Shown one piece after another: positions 46,530 to 61,464 of a DNA stretch of 64,000 bases. This DNA is from Tissierellia bacterium (GTDB taxonomy: Bacteria; Bacillota; Clostridia; Tissierellales; Peptoniphilaceae), in contig JAUNLJ010000004.1 of assembly GCA_030532305.1 (NCBI GenBank), positions 1-64,000 on the forward strand. The letters run 5' to 3'. The notes beneath the pieces were generated by a model. It saw only the letters and a program-made list of their open reading frames with translations. It was not told where the DNA came from and searched no databases. Positions within the stretch are counted from its first letter, which is position 1, and the number at the start of each line of letters is the position of its first letter. A program made the translations under genes and the position numbers.

Positions 46530-46870
46530 GAGTTCGAGTACGTTGGTCGACTGCGCGTCATGCGAGGAAAGTCCGTGCTCCACAGAGCAAAGGTGCTGGA
46601 TAACGTCCAGTAGGGGCGACCCTAAGGCTAGTGCAACAGAGATATACCGCCAAGTTGACTTGGTAAGGCTGGAAAGGCGAGGTAAGAGCTCACCAGCACA
46701 TAGGCGACTATGTGGCTATGTAAACCCCATCTGGAGCAAGACCAAGAAGGAGCAAAAGGGTGGCTGCTCGTCACCTTCCATAAGGTAGGTCGCTAAAGCT
46801 TTTTGGTGACAAAAAGATTAGATAGATAGTCGATGAATACAGAACACGGCTTATAGATGTAGTCGGACTC
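46530..46870 (+). ncRNA. rnpB: RNase P RNA
   Basis: Catalytic RNA that trims tRNA 5' leaders. The invariant P4/J3 block GAGGAAAGTCCGTGCTC lies at 46563-46579 and the 3' partner ACAGAACACGGCTTA at 46840-46854. AAACCCCAT (P11-12 side) is also present. The 5' end GAGTTCGAGTAC (46530-46541) pairs with GTAGTCGGACTC (46859-46870), forming helix P1 and fixing both ends. Total length about 341 nt is normal. An open frame inside it is not a gene. Confidence 0.95.
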
Positions 46871-47258: not shown

Positions 47259-47668
47259 AGAAAATAAGCTAAGAAAAAGCTAGATAAACATGGAAGATTG
47301 ACAGAGAGCCGGGGGAGCTGAGAGCCTGGTAATGGGAAGTGTTTGTCATTTCACTTTGGAGCTGGTGGGCTCATAAGGCCCTCCCGTATCCCGCGTTAAG
47401 GGTCCAAGAGATAGGTAAGACCTATAAAAAAGGTGGTAACGCGAGCACTTCGTCCTTTTGGCGGAGGGCTTTTTTATTTAAGAAAATAAGCTAAGAAAAA
47501 GCTAGATAAACATGGAAGATTGACAGAGAGCCGGGGGAGCTGAGAGCCTGGTAATGGGAAGTGTTTGTCATTTCACTTTGGAGCTGGTGGGCTCATAAGG
47601 CCCTCCCGTATCCCGCGTTAAGGGTTCAAGAGATAGGTAAGACCTATAAAAAAGGTGGTAACGCGAGC
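47161..47668 (+). repeat. 222-bp tandem duplication covering T-box copies
   Basis: Bases 47161-47446 match the sequence 222 bases downstream with a single difference (47404 against 47626). The unit covers one complete T-box plus the spacer TTTAAGAAAATAAGCTAAG. Near-identity in non-coding DNA indicates a recent duplication or ongoing homogenisation. Confidence 0.93.
47300..47480 (+). promoter_or_regulatory. T-box riboswitch, copy 2 (probable Trp)
   Basis: Same layout as copy 1: stem I region from 47301, candidate specifier TGG at 47363-47365, antiterminator core AAGGTGGTAACGCG (47430-47443), then CGTCC and a terminator with six T. CGCGTTA at 47392-47398 is exactly complementary to TAACGCG of the core, a possible competing structure. 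It is nearly identical to copy 3. Confidence 0.88.
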
Positions 47669-47705
47669 GCCCTCGTCCTTTTGGATGGGGGCCCATTTAT
47701 TTTTA
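47522..47705 (+). promoter_or_regulatory. T-box riboswitch, copy 3, next to the gene (probable Trp)
   Basis: Third copy, identical to copy 2 except for one base (T at 47626) until 47668. Its terminator arm then diverges: GCGCCCTCGTCCTTTTGGATGGGGGCCC replaces the copy 1/2 sequence and the T-run is TTTATTTTT. Candidate specifier TGG at 47585-47587; antiterminator core at 47652-47665. It directly controls the downstream lipoprotein gene. Confidence 0.88.
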
Positions 47706-48738: not shown

Positions 48739-49021
48739 CAAATTATATAAAAGGCGAGATATGAGAGAAGAACAAGGGGAGACTTTCCAGAGAGCTATCG
48801 GCAGGTGGAAGATAGCAAGAGAAGCTTGTTATATATACACTCATATAGCTGACTGGCTGAAGGAAAGTAGGCCAGTCCGGAGACCCCCGTTAGCATAGGT
48901 TGAGGATTAACTCTTAGAGGTAATTATATTTATAATTACAAATCAGGGTGGTACCACGAGATATGACCTCTCGTCCCTGTAAACCGTTTGTGTTTGCAGA
49001 GACGGGGGGTAATTTTTTTTG
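48739..49021 (+). promoter_or_regulatory. T-box riboswitch, copy 4 (probable Trp), diverged from the other three
   Basis: Classical T-box. Lower stem I pairs ACTTTCC (48782-48788) with GGAAAGT (48862-48868); AGCTAT (48793-48798) pairs with ATAGCT (48845-48850). The specifier loop contains GACTGGCTGAA, best read as TGG (48854-48856). The core AGGGTGGTACCACG is at 48945-48958. The terminator pairs CGTCCCTGTAAAC (48972-48984) with GTTTGCAGAGACG (48992-49004) and ends in eight T. The sequence is quite unlike copies 1-3, so it is not part of the recent duplication. Confidence 0.9.
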
Positions 49022-52333: not shown

Positions 52334-52351
52334 TTTACCTAAACTTTACAA
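52334..52351 (+). promoter_or_regulatory. Probable Pho operator before the permuted pstS
   Basis: TTTACCTAAACTTTACAA: two TTTAC units 11 bp apart, the helical-turn spacing of PhoP/PhoB boxes. A copy with only one base different lies before pstC. TATAAA at 52360-52365 may serve as -10. Binding by the response regulator encoded at 56932 is inferred. Confidence 0.65.
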
Positions 52352-52425: not shown

Positions 52426-53385
52426 ATGAACAATATTAAAAGAATTGGTCTAATTGCTAGTATGACTGCCCTAAGTTTAGCCCTTGTTGCTTGTGGTGGA
52501 AACGAAGCTGCCAACAACGGTGGAGAAAATGCCGCCAACAACACTGAAGCCAATGCAGGAAACAATGTAGCTACAGAAGAAGCTGCTGATCCTTCTGAAC
52601 TAGGTGCTATTGCAGTAGTTAGCCGTGAAGATGGGTCCGGAACTAGAGGGGCCTTTGTTGAAATCGTCGGCATTCTTGAAGAAGACGAAAATGGCGAAGA
52701 AATTGACATGACCACCCAAGAAGCCGATATCCAAAACTCTACCAATGGGGTTATGACCACTGTAGCTGGAAACCCTTCAGCCATTGGCTATATCTCTTTA
52801 GGCTCTCTTAACGACACCGTTAAGGCCCTAAGCATTGATGGGGTTGAACCTACTGCTGAAACTATTATTGCTGGCGACTATGCCATTGCAAGACCCTTCC
52901 TACTAGTAACTAAGGGAGCACCTGCTGAAGGTTCTATTGAAGAAGACTTCCTAAAGTTTGCTCACTCTAAAGAAGGTCAAGACCTAGCTGAACAAGAAGG
53001 CTATGTCAGGGTAGCTGGTGAAGAAGAATACGAAGCTGCAGGCCTTTCTGGTTCTATTACTGTAGCAGGTTCTACTTCTGTAACTCCCCTTGTAGAAGTT
53101 CTTGTTGAAGCCTACACTGCCCACAACCCAGATGTAACCATCGAAATCCAATCTACCGGTTCTTCTGCAGGTATCCAAGCTGCCACAGAAGGAACAGCTC
53201 AAATTGGTATGTCTTCTAGAAACCTAAAAGATGAAGAAAAAGGCGAACTTGAAGAACTTGTTCTAGCCCAAGACGGGATTGCTGTTATCGTAAATACTGA
53301 AAATCCCCTAGCTGATATGTCCCTTGAAAATGTTAAAAACATCTTCCTTGGGGAAATGGCTGACTGGTCTGAACTTGCAGAATAA
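52426..53385 (+). CDS. pstS: Phosphate-binding lipoprotein with circularly permuted PstS domain
   Basis: 319 residues. Lipobox LVAC (Cys23), Asn/Ala/Glu-rich linker (24-58), then the two PstS halves in reversed order. Residues 60-200 are what is normally the second half: IAVVSREDGSGTRGAF, QNSTNGVMTTVAGNPSAIGY, ARPFLLVTKG and SKEGQDLAEQEGYVRV. Residues 208-319 are normally the first half: SGSITVAGSTSVTPLVEVL, EIQSTGSSAGIQAATEG, QIGMSSRNLKDEE and VKNIFLGEMADWSEL. All phosphate-binding loops are present once. GAGGAGG precedes the ATG, and codon use is of the highly expressed type. Function as the phosphate receptor for pstCAB is inferred from its position. Confidence 0.88.
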   Translation: MNNIKRIGLIASMTALSLALVACGGNEAANNGGENAANNTEANAGNNVATEEAADPSELGAIAVVSREDGSGTRGAFVEIVGILEEDENGEEIDMTTQEADIQNSTNGVMTTVAGNPSAIGYISLGSLNDTVKALSIDGVEPTAETIIAGDYAIARPFLLVTKGAPAEGSIEEDFLKFAHSKEGQDLAEQEGYVRVAGEEEYEAAGLSGSITVAGSTSVTPLVEVLVEAYTAHNPDVTIEIQSTGSSAGIQAATEGTAQIGMSSRNLKDEEKGELEELVLAQDGIAVIVNTENPLADMSLENVKNIFLGEMADWSELAE

Positions 53386-53730: not shown

Positions 53731-53748
53731 TTTACATAAACTTTACAA
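53731..53748 (+). promoter_or_regulatory. Probable Pho operator before pstC
   Basis: TTTACATAAACTTTACAA, identical to the pstS-upstream element in 17 of 18 bases, again with an 11-bp repeat period. TATATT at 53759-53764 could be the -10. It lies about 60 bases before pstC. Confidence 0.65.
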
Positions 53749-53806
53749 TTCAGCTAAGTATATTTGACCCTGGCTTGCTATGCTAGGGAACAAAGGAGGA
53801 GAACAA

Positions 53807-54664
53807 ATGAAGTCTAAAGGATTTGAAAAGTTCTGGGAGATTGTATTTTTTATCTGCTCTCTCGTTTCAGTGGCTTCCATCATCGTCATCTGTTATTTTA
53901 TTTTTTCCAACGGCCTTCCATTTATTTTGAATTATGGCCTGAGTGATTTTCTTTTAGGAACAGATTGGCGGCCAACGGCAGGCAACCCTAAATTTGGGAT
54001 TCTGCCCATGATCATGGGGTCCATCTATGTGACGATTGGAGCTTGTATTGTAGGTATTCCTATCGGTGTCTTAACAGCTATTTACTTAGCCTATTTTTGC
54101 CCGGATAGAATTTATCGTTTTATTAAACCCGCTGTTAACCTGATGGCAGGCATTCCATCTATCGTCTATGGTTTCTTTGCCCTTATGGTCATGGTTCCCT
54201 TTATTAGGGGCTTTGCCGGAGGAACCGGGATGAGTGTTTTTACAGCTTCTGTCCTACTGGGCATTATGATCCTGCCCACCATTATTGGTCTGTCTGAAAG
54301 TTCCATTCGGTCAGTCCCCAGGTCCTATTATGAGGGGTCTATTGCCCTGGGGGCCACCCATGAAAGGTCTGTTATGCGGATTGTGGTTCCTGCAGCCAAG
54401 TCCGGTATTTTAGCAGCCATCATCCTAGGCATTGGCCGGGCTATTGGGGAAACCATGGCCGTTATTTTGATTGCCGGTAACCAACCCCGGATGCCCAAGG
54501 GGATCTTTAAGGGGGCCCGGACCATGACAGCCAACATTGTTATTGAAATGGCCTATGCGGCAGGCGCCCATAGGGAGGCCCTCATCGCTACAGGTGTCGT
54601 CCTATTTATATTTATCTTGATCATTAACTTAATTTTTAATCTTGTTAAAAGGAGGATGAATTAA
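53807..54664 (+). CDS. pstC: Phosphate ABC transporter permease PstC
   Basis: 285-residue inner-membrane permease with six predicted helices. NPKFGILPMIMGSIYVTIGA near the N-terminus, the PstC/PstA patterns LMAGIPSIVYGFFALMVMVPF and SIALGATHERSVMRIVVPAAKSGI (ATPase-coupling loop), then GRAIGETMAVILIAGN. ATG 53807 has AAAGGAGGAG upstream; an in-frame ATG 27 bases earlier lies before that site. The stop overlaps pstA by one base. Confidence 0.96.
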   Translation: MKSKGFEKFWEIVFFICSLVSVASIIVICYFIFSNGLPFILNYGLSDFLLGTDWRPTAGNPKFGILPMIMGSIYVTIGACIVGIPIGVLTAIYLAYFCPDRIYRFIKPAVNLMAGIPSIVYGFFALMVMVPFIRGFAGGTGMSVFTASVLLGIMILPTIIGLSESSIRSVPRSYYEGSIALGATHERSVMRIVVPAAKSGILAAIILGIGRAIGETMAVILIAGNQPRMPKGIFKGARTMTANIVIEMAYAAGAHREALIATGVVLFIFILIINLIFNLVKRRMN

Positions 54665-55491
54665 TGAATCGGAAGACCCAGGCGCATCTGATGCGTTTTA
54701 TTATTCATCTTAGTGCAGCCATAACCGTAGCCGCTTTAGCCTTTATTGTTATCTATATTATCATTAGAGGGGTCCCCAACCTCTCTTCCAGCCTCTTTGC
54801 CCTGGAATATACCACAGACAATGTATCCATGTTCCCGGCCATTATCACCACCCTTGTGGTGGTCCTATTGACCCTTCTTATTGCCACCCCCCTAGGCATC
54901 TTTACCGCCTTTTACCTAGTGGAATATGCTAAGAAGGGGTCTACTGTGGTAGATATTATCCGGGTAACCACAGAAACCCTCCAAGGGATCCCATCCATCT
55001 TATATGGTCTTTTTGGGATGCTCTTTTTTACGGTCTTTTTAGGCATGGGCTATTCCATTATTTCTGGGGTCTTGACCCTATCTATTATGGTCCTTCCCCT
55101 AATTATCCGGTCTACAGAAGAAGCCCTTATTGCCGTAGACGATAGCCTAAGACAGGGGAGCTTTGCCCTAGGGGCAGGTAAGCTTAGGACCATTATTAAG
55201 GTGGTCCTTCCTGTAGCCACCCCCGGGATCCTGTCTGGGGTCATCCTGGCCATTGGCCGGTGTGTGGGGGAAACGGCGGCCCTAATGTTCACCCTGGGAA
55301 CGGCCACAGCCATGCCCACAGGGCTCCTGTCTTCTGGGAGGACCCTGGCCCTACACATGTATGTATTATCCACAGAAGGACTTCATGTCAACGAGTCCTT
55401 TGCCGTTGGATTTGTATTAATCATTCTGACCCTACTCATTAACAGCTTGTCAGAATATGTGAGTCGGAGATTTGTTGAAGGAGGAAAATAA
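54664..55491 (+). CDS. pstA: Phosphate ABC transporter permease PstA
   Basis: 275 residues, six membrane segments: VSMFPAIITTLVVVLLTLLIATPLGIFTAFYL, ETLQGIPSILYGLFGMLFF, QGSFALGAGKLRTIIKVVLPVATPGILSG and GRCVGETAALMFTLG. Partner of PstC in the phosphate importer. The 1-base overlap with pstC and direct abutment with pstB indicate one mRNA. Confidence 0.96.
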   Translation: MNRKTQAHLMRFIIHLSAAITVAALAFIVIYIIIRGVPNLSSSLFALEYTTDNVSMFPAIITTLVVVLLTLLIATPLGIFTAFYLVEYAKKGSTVVDIIRVTTETLQGIPSILYGLFGMLFFTVFLGMGYSIISGVLTLSIMVLPLIIRSTEEALIAVDDSLRQGSFALGAGKLRTIIKVVLPVATPGILSGVILAIGRCVGETAALMFTLGTATAMPTGLLSSGRTLALHMYVLSTEGLHVNESFAVGFVLIILTLLINSLSEYVSRRFVEGGK

Positions 55492-56244
55492 ATGCCCAAA
55501 ATGCAGATTAAGGACGTGGACTTATACTACGGTGATTTCCAAGCCCTAAAGAAAATCAATATGGATATCGCAGCCAACGAGGTGACTGCCTTTATTGGCC
55601 CCAGTGGATGCGGAAAGTCCACCATGCTAAAGTGCCTAAACCGGATGAATGACCTGGTTGAAAATTGCCGGATTGAGGGTCTGATGACCCTAGACGGGGA
55701 GGACATCTACGCAGACAACTACGACCTAAACCTCCTTCGTAAAAGGGTGGGCATGGTCTTCCAGCACCCCAACCCCTTCCCCATGAGCATCTATGACAAC
55801 ATTGCCTATGGGCCCAGGACCCATGGGATTACCGACAAAAACGAGCTAGATGAAATTGTAGAAAGATCCCTAAAGGGAGGGGCCATCTGGAATGAAGTTA
55901 AGGACAAACTCCACCAAAAGGCCACTGAAATTTCCGGGGGCCAACAACAAAGGGTTTGTATTGCCCGGGCCCTAGCCGTATCACCTGAAGTCCTCCTTAT
56001 GGACGAACCCACCTCTGCCTTGGACCCTATTTCCACCTTAAAGATAGAAGAACTTGTCCAAGACCTAAAAAAGGATTATACTATAGTAATAGTTACCCAC
56101 AACATGCAACAAGCCACACGGGTCTCCGATAAGACAGCCTTCTTCTTGACAGGCGAGGTTATTGAATTTGATAACACAGAAAAACTATTCTCTTCCCCAG
56201 AAGACCAACGGACAGAGGATTATATCACAGGTCGATTTGGTTAA
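55492..56244 (+). CDS. pstB: Phosphate ABC transporter ATP-binding protein PstB
   Basis: 250-residue ATPase of the high-affinity phosphate importer: [19 protein letters not shown], Walker [23 protein letters not shown]-loop [21 protein letters not shown], signature [17 protein letters not shown], Walker [13 protein letters not shown] and [11 protein letters not shown]. Begins immediately after the pstA stop with GAAGGAGG just upstream. Confidence 0.98.
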
Positions 56245-56262: not shown

Positions 56263-56922
56263 ATGCGTAAAAATTATGACCGTGAGTTGGAAGTTTTAAA
56301 CCACAATATTATAGAAATGGCCGCCTTTGTAGAAAGAGCCATTTTAAACGCCTTGACGGCCCTGGAAACCAGAGATGCAGACCTAGCTAAACGTGTCATA
56401 AAAAGAGACGAAGAAGTGGATGATATGGAAAGGGACATTGAAGACATGTGCCTAAGCCTGATTCTTCGTCAACAACCTGTTGCCAGTGACTTAAGATTTA
56501 TTTCTGCAGCCCTTAAGATTATCACTGACCTAGAGCGGATTGGGGACCATGCCCAGGACATTTCAGAAATTTCCTTGGCCATGCCAGACTCACCCCTTTC
56601 TTCAGAACTGGATGCCGTCCTAAAGATGTACAATGAAAGTTCCTACATGATTAAGACCGCGGTGGATGCCTTTATCACCCGGGACGAAGACCTGGCCAAC
56701 GAGGCCATTGCCCATGATGATGTGGTAGACCAACTCTTTGTAGATTTTAAGGATCAAATTATAGAGGACCTAAAGGGCGGCAGCAAAGATGCCGAAGAAT
56801 ATATTGACCTTCTACAAATTTCCAAATACCTTGAAAGAGTAGGGGACCATGCTGAAAATATTGCCGAATGGGTTATTTTCTCCATTACTGGCGAACACGT
56901 TGATGTAGACTTTGAAGAATAA
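56263..56922 (+). CDS. phoU: Phosphate signalling complex protein PhoU
   Basis: 219 residues, two repeats of a three-helix bundle: REVLNHNI-type start (YDRELEVLNHNIIEMA), RDEEVDDMERDIEDMCLSLILRQQPVASDLRFI in the first repeat and DHAENIAEWVIF in the second. PhoU links PstB activity to the PhoR sensor and dampens uptake and signalling when phosphate is plentiful. It sits between pstB and the two-component genes. Confidence 0.96.
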   Translation: MRKNYDRELEVLNHNIIEMAAFVERAILNALTALETRDADLAKRVIKRDEEVDDMERDIEDMCLSLILRQQPVASDLRFISAALKIITDLERIGDHAQDISEISLAMPDSPLSSELDAVLKMYNESSYMIKTAVDAFITRDEDLANEAIAHDDVVDQLFVDFKDQIIEDLKGGSKDAEEYIDLLQISKYLERVGDHAENIAEWVIFSITGEHVDVDFEE

Positions 56923-56931
56923 GGTGATCTT

Positions 56932-57609
56932 ATGATTTACTGTGTGGAGGATGAAGCTAACATCCGTGACCTAGTGGTTTATGCCTTAAAAAACAACGAC
57001 CATGAGGTGAGGGGCTTTGAAAAGGGGTCCGAGCTTTTTCAGGCCATGAAGGACCAGGTCCCCGATATGATTCTTCTAGACATTATGCTGCCTGAAGAAG
57101 ACGGATTGGAAATCCTAGAAAAGATCCGCCAGGATACCCGCTATGAGGATATTCCGGTGATTATGCTAACGGCCAAGTCCTCAGAGCTAGATCGGGTTCT
57201 GGGTCTAGACAAGGGGGCCGATGACTATATGGTCAAACCCTTTAGTGTCCTAGAGCTCATTGCCCGTGTGAATGCCTTGTTTAGAAGGATGAGAAAACAA
57301 GAGGGTGGCTCTGACAATATTGAGATCGAGGGGGTCAGAATTGACAACCAACGCCGGCAGGTCTTGGTAGAGGGTCAAGAAATCAACCTGACCTACAAGG
57401 AATTTGAACTCTTGCTTTATCTTTTTCAAAATAAAAATATTGTCCTTAACCGGGACAAGATTATGAGTCATGTTTGGGGCTATGATTTTGAGGGAGAAAG
57501 CCGGACTGTGGATGTCCACATTGCTTCCTTAAGACAAAAATTAAAGGACAAGGCCTATTTAATTGAAACCGTACGCAACATTGGTTATAAAGTAGGGACC
57601 AGTGAATGA
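56932..57609 (+). CDS. Response regulator, PhoP/PhoB-like (OmpR family)
   Basis: 225 residues: receiver domain (VEDEANIRDLVVYAL, phosphoacceptor in MILLDIMLP about residue 51, VIMLTAKSS, GADDYMVKPFS) and C-terminal winged helix (TYKEFELLLYLFQNKNIVLNRDKIM, GESRTVDVHIASLRQKL). Location after phoU and beside a PhoR-like kinase makes it the probable phosphate regulator and the probable reader of the shared 18-bp repeats. Overlaps the kinase by 4 bases. Confidence 0.92.
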   Translation: MIYCVEDEANIRDLVVYALKNNDHEVRGFEKGSELFQAMKDQVPDMILLDIMLPEEDGLEILEKIRQDTRYEDIPVIMLTAKSSELDRVLGLDKGADDYMVKPFSVLELIARVNALFRRMRKQEGGSDNIEIEGVRIDNQRRQVLVEGQEINLTYKEFELLLYLFQNKNIVLNRDKIMSHVWGYDFEGESRTVDVHIASLRQKLKDKAYLIETVRNIGYKVGTSE

Positions 57610-59321
57610 AAAAGAGGTCTCTAGTTTATGGTTTAGCCATGTCCTTATTTGTGAGCCTAATTTTTCTTTTGTCCCTGTCCCTAAGTAGCTACCACCGGAT
57701 TATAGGGATGGAAGAAGCGGGCTTTATGTCCCTTGGCCAGGTCCTAGAGGGCCTAGAAAATAGCCAGGCCAGGATCCAGGTCCTAGAGGCCAAGACCCGG
57801 GAGAACAAGGAAAAGAAGTATATACTTGTCAATCAAGTAGGAGATCCCCTATATGCCAACCTGGATATGGAGGATCTCCCTTCTTACATAAGCTGGGAAG
57901 AACTTCAGGCCCTGGATAAGAGCCAGGAAAAAACCAGCTTACAAATCCTAGAGAGGTCCTGGAGAGAGGGCATGGCCCAGTCTATTTATGCCCTAGATTC
58001 AGGAGGCTATCTTGTTCAAATAGACCAGCAAGAAAGCCTTGTTGCCTATATCCTAAGTAATTTGCCCATTAGCCTTGTTATCTTCATTATAGGGAGTTTT
58101 TTGAATACCCTGATTTTGGAAAGGCTCTTTGACAAAAAGAAAAGGCAGGCCCAGTTTTTAGTCCGAAACCTGGGTGGGCTGGTGGAAGACCCCAGCCTGG
58201 ACCTACCCCTAGATCCGGACTTTAAGGAGGCTGGCCTTATGGCCAAGGAAGAGGCCCAAAAGATCCAGGACCAGATCCAGAGGATGGAGAGCCAATTAAG
58301 TGGATTAAAGGATATGATTGTCAACATGCGGGAGGGGGTTATCCTGGTGGGGGAAGATCGAAAGATCATCTCCATCAACCAGTCTGCCGTGAAGATCGTA
58401 AATGCCTCCATCTATATTAACTATATGGACAAGGACATCCTCTATCTTTGCCGGGAGCTGGACTTTATCCGGATCTTTAACAAGGCCTTTGAAGAGGCCC
58501 TGCCCGGCATTGAGACCATGGAAATAGGCGGCCGGACCATAAAAATCTTTTTAAATCCAGTTTTTACAGCAGAGAACATCTTCTTTGGGATGATGCTCCT
58601 TTTAATTGATGTCACCGAGGCCTCCCGGGCAGAAAAACAAAGGCGGGAATTTACCTCCAATGTAACCCATGAGCTAAAGACCCCCCTAACCTCTATTAGG
58701 GGCTATGCCGAGCTTCTCCAGACTGGTCTGGTCCAGGAAGAGGACCAAAAAAAGTTTCTGGCCATTATCTTGGAAGAGAGCCAGCGGCTCTTTGAACTAA
58801 TTGACGCCATTATCTCCATGTCCCGGCTGGAAGAGGATATCCAGGAGGGGGAGATGGAGCTTTTAGACCTAAAGGGCCTGGTGGAATCTATTTTAAGAAG
58901 CCGGGAGCCTGATATTAAGGCCAAGGACCTTCATATCCAGACCCATTTTTCTAAAGATAACCGGCTCTACACCCACCCCCGTCTCATGGAGGAGATCCTT
59001 AGAAACCTTCTGGACAATGCCATTTCCTATAATGTCAAGGGAGGGACCATTGCCATCACCATTAAGGATGCGGAAGATGAGCTGGTCTTTTCCATCAAGG
59101 ACACGGGCATTGGGATTGCCTATGACCACCAGGACCATATCTTTGAGCGGTTTTATATGGTGGACCAGTCCAGGTCCTACAACAAGAAGTCCACAGGCCT
59201 GGGCCTATCCATTACCAAGCACAATGTAGACAAGCTCAAGGGGCGGATTGACCTGGTTTCCCAAAAGGGCAAGGGGAGTCTTTTTACCGTCACCCTGCCA
59301 AAAACCCAGAAATCACAATAA
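57606..59321 (+). CDS. Sensor histidine kinase, PhoR-like
   Basis: 571 residues. Two transmembrane segments (about 8-30 and 145-170) flank an extracellular region; then a PAS domain (MREGVILVGEDRKIISINQSA). The HisKA domain has the phosphoacceptor FTSNVTHELKTPLTSIRGY, and the HATPase shows LLDNAISYNVKGGTIAI, VFSIKDTGIGI and KKSTGLGLSITKH. The architecture matches Gram-positive PhoR. Coupled to the upstream regulator by ATGA. Confidence 0.93.
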   Translation: MKKRSLVYGLAMSLFVSLIFLLSLSLSSYHRIIGMEEAGFMSLGQVLEGLENSQARIQVLEAKTRENKEKKYILVNQVGDPLYANLDMEDLPSYISWEELQALDKSQEKTSLQILERSWREGMAQSIYALDSGGYLVQIDQQESLVAYILSNLPISLVIFIIGSFLNTLILERLFDKKKRQAQFLVRNLGGLVEDPSLDLPLDPDFKEAGLMAKEEAQKIQDQIQRMESQLSGLKDMIVNMREGVILVGEDRKIISINQSAVKIVNASIYINYMDKDILYLCRELDFIRIFNKAFEEALPGIETMEIGGRTIKIFLNPVFTAENIFFGMMLLLIDVTEASRAEKQRREFTSNVTHELKTPLTSIRGYAELLQTGLVQEEDQKKFLAIILEESQRLFELIDAIISMSRLEEDIQEGEMELLDLKGLVESILRSREPDIKAKDLHIQTHFSKDNRLYTHPRLMEEILRNLLDNAISYNVKGGTIAITIKDAEDELVFSIKDTGIGIAYDHQDHIFERFYMVDQSRSYNKKSTGLGLSITKHNVDKLKGRIDLVSQKGKGSLFTVTLPKTQKSQ

Positions 59322-59362: not shown

Positions 59363-60043
59363 ATGTTTAAAATTCTTGTGGTAGACGATGAAGCAAAAAT
59401 CAGGGAGGTCATTAGGACCTACGCCGAATTTGAAGGCCACCAAGTGGTGGAGGCCTCTGATGGCTTAGAGGCTGTAGAAATATGTAGAAATGAAGACTTT
59501 GATGTAATTGTCATGGACATTATGATGCCCAGGCTATCGGGTTTTTCAGCCTATAAGGAGATTAAAAAGTTTAAGGATATTCCTGTCCTTATGCTATCGG
59601 CTAGAAAAGACGAGTATGACAAGCTCTTTGGTTTTGAAATAGGGATTGATGACTATGTGGTCAAGCCCTTTTCCCCCAAGGAACTTATGGCCCGGCTCAA
59701 TGTCATAGTCAAACGAAACAAAAACATCCATGACAACCGGATCATGACCTTTGAAGGCCTGCAAATTGACCTAGACGGCCGCCAGGTCTATGTAGACAAG
59801 GTCCCTGTGGACCTGACCCCCAAGGAGTATGACCTCCTGGTCTACCTGGCTGAAAATGAAAATATAGCCCTTACCCGGGACCGGCTTTTAAACAAGGTCT
59901 GGGGTTATGACTTCTACGGGGACGACCGGACTGTGGATACCCACATAAAAATGCTTAGAAATAGTGTGGGGCCCTACCGGGACTTTATTGTCACCGTTCG
60001 TGGGGTGGGTTATAAATTTCAACCGGGAAGTGGCATCCTGTGA
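59363..60043 (+). CDS. Response regulator, OmpR/PhoB family (second pair)
   Basis: 226 residues: ILVVDDEAKIREVIRTYAEFEGH, phosphoacceptor in VIVMDIMMPRLSGF, VLMLSARKDEYDKLFGFEIGIDDYVVKPFSPKEL, then a winged helix with VDLTPKEYDLLVYLAENENIALTRDRLLNKVWG and DDRTVDTHIKMLRN. More like VanR/WalR-type regulators than the PhoP-like protein upstream, though assignment to a subgroup by eye is weak. AAGAGGTGAC precedes the ATG. Target genes unknown. Confidence 0.92.
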   Translation: MFKILVVDDEAKIREVIRTYAEFEGHQVVEASDGLEAVEICRNEDFDVIVMDIMMPRLSGFSAYKEIKKFKDIPVLMLSARKDEYDKLFGFEIGIDDYVVKPFSPKELMARLNVIVKRNKNIHDNRIMTFEGLQIDLDGRQVYVDKVPVDLTPKEYDLLVYLAENENIALTRDRLLNKVWGYDFYGDDRTVDTHIKMLRNSVGPYRDFIVTVRGVGYKFQPGSGIL

Positions 60044-61464
60044 GAAAGCAAGCCATAGATGGGAAGTCAATCCGGATCAAATTTTGGATCTACTTTTCTA
60101 TCCTGGTGGTCTTTATCCTCCTCCTCCTCTGGCTCCTCCAGATTGTCTTTATCAACTCTTTTTACCAGTCCATGAAGACCCAGGAGATTGAAAAGATCGG
60201 CCAGGAGATTGTCTCCGAATTTGGCCAAGAGGACTTCCAAGAAACCGTCCTAAGTTATAGCTTTGAAAAGGGGGTCAATATCCAGATCCTAGATGGCTTT
60301 GGCCGCCGGTATTTTCCCCTAGAACCCATTGACGTCTTCCAGCAACCTGCCCTAAGAAAAGATGACTACGACAAGTATATCCTCCCCCTCATTAAGGGCA
60401 ACCTGGCCAGTAGCACCTACCTAGAGTCCATAGGGGACACAGGCACCAGCTCCATCCTCCATGTGGCCTATTTGGGGGAGGAGGCCAACGACCGTTATTA
60501 TCTCATGGTCAACACCATCCTAGATCCGGTGGACACCACTGTGGATGTCCTAGTCAACATCCTTCTCATTGTGTCCGTTATAGCCATGTTTTTGGCCTTT
60601 GGCCTGGCCTATTTTCTTTCCAACCGCCTGGCCGCCCCCCTTACCAACATGGCCAAGACAGCCCGGCAACTGGGCCAGGGGGACTATGATGTCAGTTTTG
60701 AAAAGGGGGACTACACGGAGATTAACGACCTGGCCAGGACCCTAAACTATGCCAAGGAAGAGCTAACCAAGACCATAGAGGTAAGAAAAGACCTTATTGC
60801 CAATGTCAGCCACGACCTCAAGACCCCCCTAACAGTCATCAAGTCCTATGGGGAGATGATCCGGGATATTTCCGGAGACAATAGGGACCTAAGAAACAAG
60901 CATATAGACACCATCCTCCAGGAGACCGACTATTTGACAGAATTTGTCAATGACCTTTTGGACCTGTCCCGGGTGGAGTCTGAGCTAGAAGACTTAAATA
61001 AAAGGCCCTTTGACCTGGTGGACCTAGCTAAGAAGACCCTGGAACGCTTTGAACTTTTAAAGAAAAAGGACGGCTACCAGCTGGATATGGAGGCCCCCAA
61101 GACCTGCATCATCCTGGGAGACAAGGACAAGATCCGGCAAGTTATCTACAACTTTATCTCCAATGCCATCAACTATTCCAGGGACCGCAAGTATGTCCTT
61201 CTTAAGATCACCCAGAAAAAGACCTGTGTCCGCCTATCGGTCATTGACCATGGGATAGGGATTCCAGCAGACAAGCTGGAGGATATCTGGGACCGGTATT
61301 TTAGGGCCCGGGATAATTATGAAAGGCAGGTTGTAGGCACAGGCCTGGGCCTGCATATCTGTAAGACCATCTTGGAGCTCCATGACTTTAACTATGGGGT
61401 GATCTCCCAAGAAGGCCGGGGGAGCGAGTTCTATTTTGAAGTCCCCCTTTATGATGAAAACTAG
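60040..61464 (+). CDS. Sensor histidine kinase (second pair)
   Basis: 474 residues, GTG start overlapping the upstream regulator by 4 bases. Membrane segments at about 14-36 and 165-190 with an extracellular domain between them. A HAMP domain (LSNRLAAPLTNMAKTARQLGQGDY) follows, then HisKA with DLIANVSHDLKTPLTVIKSYGEM. The HATPase shows FISNAINYSRDRKYVLL, VIDHGIGIPADKLEDIWDRYF and GTGLGLHICKTIL. The stimulus is unknown. Confidence 0.93.
   Translation: MRKQAIDGKSIRIKFWIYFSILVVFILLLLWLLQIVFINSFYQSMKTQEIEKIGQEIVSEFGQEDFQETVLSYSFEKGVNIQILDGFGRRYFPLEPIDVFQQPALRKDDYDKYILPLIKGNLASSTYLESIGDTGTSSILHVAYLGEEANDRYYLMVNTILDPVDTTVDVLVNILLIVSVIAMFLAFGLAYFLSNRLAAPLTNMAKTARQLGQGDYDVSFEKGDYTEINDLARTLNYAKEELTKTIEVRKDLIANVSHDLKTPLTVIKSYGEMIRDISGDNRDLRNKHIDTILQETDYLTEFVNDLLDLSRVESELEDLNKRPFDLVDLAKKTLERFELLKKKDGYQLDMEAPKTCIILGDKDKIRQVIYNFISNAINYSRDRKYVLLKITQKKTCVRLSVIDHGIGIPADKLEDIWDRYFRARDNYERQVVGTGLGLHICKTILELHDFNYGVISQEGRGSEFYFEVPLYDEN

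Follow-up and report, generated by a model that had tools for sequence, protein, structure and literature searches.

A circularly permuted phosphate-binding protein, PstS, in the Pst importer operon of a Peptoniphilaceae bacterium and in its relatives

The pst Locus and its Surroundings

The DNA analyzed here (the window) is a stretch of 64,000 nucleotides, positions 1 to 64,000 of the forward strand of contig JAUNLJ010000004.1, from a Tissierellia bacterium of the family Peptoniphilaceae. The genome (assembly GCA_030532305.1; 1.52 Mb, 97.5% complete) is a draft of 34 contigs. A complete open reading frame of 319 amino acids at 52426–53385, forward strand, encodes a PstS whose two halves stand in swapped order. 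It is followed on the same strand by genes for the permeases PstC (53780–54664) and PstA (54664–55491), the ATPase PstB (55492–56244), PhoU (56263–56922), a PhoB-type response regulator (56932–57609) and, judging by the list of open reading frames and the neighborhoods of relatives, a PhoR-type histidine kinase (57606–59321). Of 80 named loci with a permuted pstS, 79 have a pstC homologue behind it, 76 a pstA, 75 a pstB, and 70 a phoU homologue; all three of pstC, pstA, and pstB lie downstream in 75 of the 80, and the response regulator is the usual downstream neighbor in relatives. A Pho-box-like site, TTTACC-N5-TTTACA with one mismatch, lies upstream of pstS (52334–52350, forward strand) and a perfect Pho box, TTTACATAAACTTTACA, upstream of pstC (53731–53747, forward strand). 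The form TTTACA-N5-TTTACA is that reported for pneumococcus (PMC4913102). Matches with at most one mismatch numbered three in the window against 0.19 expected. Ahead of the permuted pstS of 76 named relatives, the box was perfect in 30 and had at most one mismatch in 49, with none in shuffled sequences.

Other features have also been noted in the window. A second pair of response regulator and histidine kinase genes lies immediately 3′ of the PhoBR-like pair, at 59363–61464. Three T-box leaders (47262–47460, 47484–47683, and 48748–48981), two of them in tandem, precede two genes for ABC-type binding proteins (open reading frames at 47561 and 49032) accompanied by permease and ATPase genes, and the genes behind these leaders probably encode a tRNA-sensing amino-acid importer. 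A class A RNase P RNA lies at 46535–46869; the small open reading frame listed at 46543–46788, which overlaps it, is probably not a gene.

Order of the Halves and Predicted Fold

The chain begins with a signal peptide and the lipobox of a PstS lipoprotein (LVAC; 52426–52494), whose Cys23 is invariant in an alignment of 12 relatives. A low-complexity linker (52495–52605; pLDDT below 50 at residues 19–51) leads from the lipid anchor to the permuted domain. The C-terminal half of PstS comes first (52606–53016, residues about 61–197; positions 164–294 of the TIGR02136 PstS profile, colinear with the structure 4h1x) and contains the SREDGSGTR phosphate-binding loop. A linker of residues about 198–206 (53017–53043), placed by alignment, bridges the former C- and N-termini. 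The N-terminal half (53044–53376, residues about 206–317; profile positions 32–157) carries the motifs GSTSVTP, GSSAG, and GMSSR and stops at the normal mid-protein junction, WSEL. In the DNA-level search, profile positions 164–294 fell at 52609–53010 and 32–157 at 53029–53382; in the protein-level search, residues 203–318 matched positions 33–156. Each half is present once, both match TIGR02136, and they do so as two stretches in swapped rather than the normal N-to-C order. In its native order the protein scored 198.6 bits in two pieces; rotated to the normal order it scored 218.3 bits as a single match. The curated cut-off is 206.6 bits, and the family model splits on the native protein and falls just short of that value because the chain order has been rewired. 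By its sequence, the protein is thus a member of a permuted PstS subfamily and not a canonical TIGR02136 member. The break falls between profile positions of about 157 and 164, as in the clade of SP_2084, the protein of structure 4h1x. A reading made from the window's sequence alone had proposed swapped PstS halves, each occurring once, behind a lipobox and a long linker, and these profile and sequence data bear it out.

The best sequence match in the PDB is 4h1x (Streptococcus pneumoniae SP_2084, deposited as "PstS 2"), which aligns as a single colinear stretch over residues 55–317, in contrast to the PstS of Clostridium perfringens, which aligns as two crossed stretches. An AlphaFold2 model, with the window protein and eleven relatives as input, had a pLDDT of 85, reaching at least 90 across most of the domain. 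It superposed end to end on 4h1x (Z 36, 256 residues, 1.4 Å, 48% identity), but with the ordinary PstS structures listed the match was confined to roughly half of the chain (140 residues at Z 12.2 with 1twy, 134 residues at Z 10.7 with 4gd5). It follows that the pneumococcal protein in the PDB is permuted as well, and that a crystal structure of a permuted PstS has been in existence since 2012. The model thus shares the two-lobed type II binding-protein fold of that crystal structure, and the window protein in all likelihood forms a single binding protein of two lobes. Among the grounds on which the sequence-only reading would have been withdrawn, a model whose halves fail to make up one such protein does not apply.

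Distribution of the Permuted Form

A search of related genomes for the same order of halves, also proposed at the outset, has yielded 124 permuted (C-N) proteins, collected together with 23 ordinary (N-C) and five tandem (N-C-N-C) ones. By our own counts, the permuted form occurs in 28 of 37 Peptoniphilaceae genomes (one divergent case included), in about 56 of 291 sampled genomes of the window's class (55 plus one divergent), and in 14 of a phylum-wide sample of 398 genomes. Named carriers include Peptoniphilus, Anaerococcus, Blautia, Agathobaculum, Anaerotruncus, Granulicatella, Desemzia, Facklamia, and Aerococcus, as well as Paraeggerthella and Adlercreutzia of the Eggerthellaceae and one Synergistaceae MAG; the Lactobacillales are among the groups with this order. 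Desemzia has a permuted and an ordinary pstS operon about 4.5 kb apart. The permuted order is thus no oddity of one genome. It belongs to a clade that is old and widespread, that includes proteins of many gut and oral anaerobes and of the pneumococcus, and for which a structure has been solved. On sequence evidence, the open reading frame at 52426–53385 is confirmed as encoding a naturally circularly permuted PstS lipoprotein, a real, widespread, and probably functional variant rather than a damaged gene. Two adjacent permuted pstS genes precede pstCAB in six loci of Anaerococcus, Anaerosphaera, and relatives (L041, L042, L058, L063, L066, and L120), and in L041 one of the two copies has strongly diverged. 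A divergent permuted pair, L044 and L163, has a long linker between the halves, the altered motifs SRDESSGTR and GSSDGYK, and pstC as the next gene; it could be a permuted subfamily of its own or stem from another permutation.

Phosphate Binding

The alignment of 12 relatives shows no variation at R67, S71, G72, T73, S216, S218, and S246. The phosphate ligands T10, F11, S38, R135, S139, G140, and T141 of Escherichia coli PstS have counterparts by motif in T217, S218, S246, R67, S71, G72, and T73, which are mostly invariant in the same alignment; the ligand Asp56 is not kept. This conservation suggests that the window protein binds phosphate; its fine specificity is presumptive, since the position of Asp56 is occupied by Ser264.

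Pneumococcus provides the strongest evidence for a permuted PstS at work in living cells. SP_2084-8 constitutes the Pst1 system, and the pst operon is activated by PnpRS (PMC6722419). The pstS1 transcript rose about 210-fold at 10 µM Pi, and deletion of pst1-phoU1 roughly halved the initial uptake rate (PMC4913102). The names cross, in that "PstS 2" of the PDB is the PstS of "Pst1."

Tandem Proteins and the Junction

The five tandem double PstS proteins (L038, L039, L040, L145, and L146), of 527–559 amino acids, each adjoin pstC. They stem from three distinct fusions, with closely related copies inside each lineage, and they show that the duplication intermediate arises readily in the PstS family. 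The sequence-only reading had suggested that a tandem duplication came first and that the outer halves were then lost; with N-C-N-C proteins now found in related bacteria, this is probably the best route to the permutation. The known tandem proteins themselves have been rejected as direct ancestors, as the tree places them in lineages of their own, outside the permuted clade.

The same reading had seen a scar of the event in the DNA at the junction. The similarity is really in the sequence (ADPSELG against ADWSELA, with 14 of 21 bases and five of seven residues identical), but as a trace of the event it has been rejected. Equally good pairs of in-frame windows within the pstS gene numbered 64 of 40,186, and across 118 permuted relatives the N-terminal flank resembled the C-terminus no more than shuffled flanks did. 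The event is far too old; no DNA trace of it is to be expected because it predates the divergence of the families.

Alternative Explanations

That the swapped order is an assembly error, or a rearranged remnant of a normal pstS, is hardly credible. The draft state of the genome, in 34 contigs, would allow for it, but the 124 collected proteins, several of them encoded by genomes assembled as one contig, show the same order and junction, and so does a crystal structure. The operon is intact, and a search of the contigs of this 97.5% complete genome with the PstS profile found no second pstS, so that neither of the other grounds on which the sequence-only reading would have been withdrawn, a misassembled order or a complete second copy, has materialized. 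Several independent permutations at one junction are a more serious, if unlikely, alternative. When the halves were re-ordered for tree building, 39 of the 43 permuted rows came together in one clade (SH-aLRT 95) with 4h1x inside it; the window protein was not a row of this tree and is placed in that clade by its 66% identity to the member L009. In the free quick tree, four permuted rows (L044, L163, L147, and L028) did not join the main clade, as repeated events would predict, and the chain may tolerate breaks at this junction. These outsiders are mostly long branches, however, and all permuted proteins have one breakpoint in common. A tree constrained to hold all sampled permuted rows together, the only one in which L044 and L163 joined the clade, scored 10.9 lnL above the free tree (AU p 0.72). 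When four long rows were dropped, the trees of the single halves each had a branch with the permuted rows to one side, at weak SH-aLRT values of 50 and 77. A single ancient permutation is the most economical reading of these sequences.

As to how that permutation arose, there is a minor but real chance that pstS was split into half genes that were later re-fused in the other order. Fission and re-fusion would give the same end product as duplication and trimming, and the tree has revealed no ancestral double gene among the collected proteins; against this route, no split pairs of half genes were noticed among the collected loci, whereas in-frame tandem double PstS genes have appeared on at least three occasions, in pst loci. 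As to function, a protein that binds another oxyanion, or acts as a sensor instead of importing phosphate, is very unlikely. The replacement of E. coli Asp56 by Ser264 could be taken to point that way, but the same Ser stands in the ordinary C. perfringens PstS, whose structure 4gd5 holds phosphate. The PstCAB-PhoU-PhoBR neighbors, the Pho boxes, and the standing of the window gene as the only pstS-like gene of its genome likewise argue for phosphate import.

Proposed Model

The preferred reading, to which we assign a probability of about 0.93, is that the product of the window gene is the functioning lipoprotein that captures phosphate for the organism's only Pst importer, with a permuted flytrap of inherited topology. 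The folded chain would start at the strand with the SREDGSGTR loop, which is mid-chain in ordinary PstS, run on to the former C-terminus, continue across the short linker into the former N-terminal end, and finish at what was once the mid-protein junction. The usual two-lobed Venus-flytrap would be expected, with phosphate in the cleft, from where it would be passed to PstCAB under the control of PhoBR and PhoU. The lipid tether would meet the fold at a changed place. The topology would have been inherited, most simply from a single ancient event, in which pstS was probably duplicated in tandem and in frame (N-C-N-C) and the first N-half, with the signal peptide kept, and the last C-half were then lost.

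Precedent and Significance

No description of a permuted PstS was found in the open-access full-text literature, subscription papers being outside the scope of the search. The term "permut" is absent from open-access texts on pneumococcal Pst, SAR11 PstS, Xanthomonas citri PhoX, and the Enterococcus faecalis pst genes, and none was found to state that 4h1x is permuted. The family, the importer, and a solved homologue are known; the permuted topology as a trait of a whole clade appears to be undescribed in open-access literature. We lean, with modest confidence, toward the wider view that a large, old PstS clade spanning anaerobic Bacillota, gut Actinomycetota, lactic acid bacteria, and pneumococcal Pst1 is permuted and undescribed, that tandem proteins beside pstC reveal the duplication route, and that the moved tether may alter docking to PstCA. 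PstS is a textbook binding protein, and a clade that includes a protein of a major pathogen, with its structure deposited, shows that a flytrap receptor survives natural permutation. Normal, double, and permuted PstS form a natural series within one gene family for the evolution of circular permutants, and the permuted proteins are ready-made scaffolds for phosphate sensors.

Comparison with Known Systems

A published precedent is MglB-2 (Tp0684) of Treponema pallidum, a natural circularly permuted lipoprotein related to the binding proteins of ABC importers (PMC4990184). It differs in its sugar-binding type I fold and in its breakpoint, and kinship with PstS is not claimed. Canonical PstS proteins (4gd5 and 4q8r of C. 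perfringens, 1twy of Vibrio cholerae) have motifs, ligand residues, and the type of operon in common with the window protein; unlike it, they have the normal half order and match it half by half. The tandem double PstS proteins contain the permuted unit, C1-N2, and sit in pst loci as the window gene does, but they have kept their outer halves and belong to lineages separate from the permuted clade. The closest counterpart is S. pneumoniae SP_2084 (4h1x). In pneumococcus and the Lactobacillales the regulator genes lie 5′ of pstS, whereas in the window they lie 3′ of phoU, and pneumococcus has a second Pst system whereas the window genome has one pstS; the order of the halves and the junction of this PstS of the Pst1 importer are the same as in the window protein.
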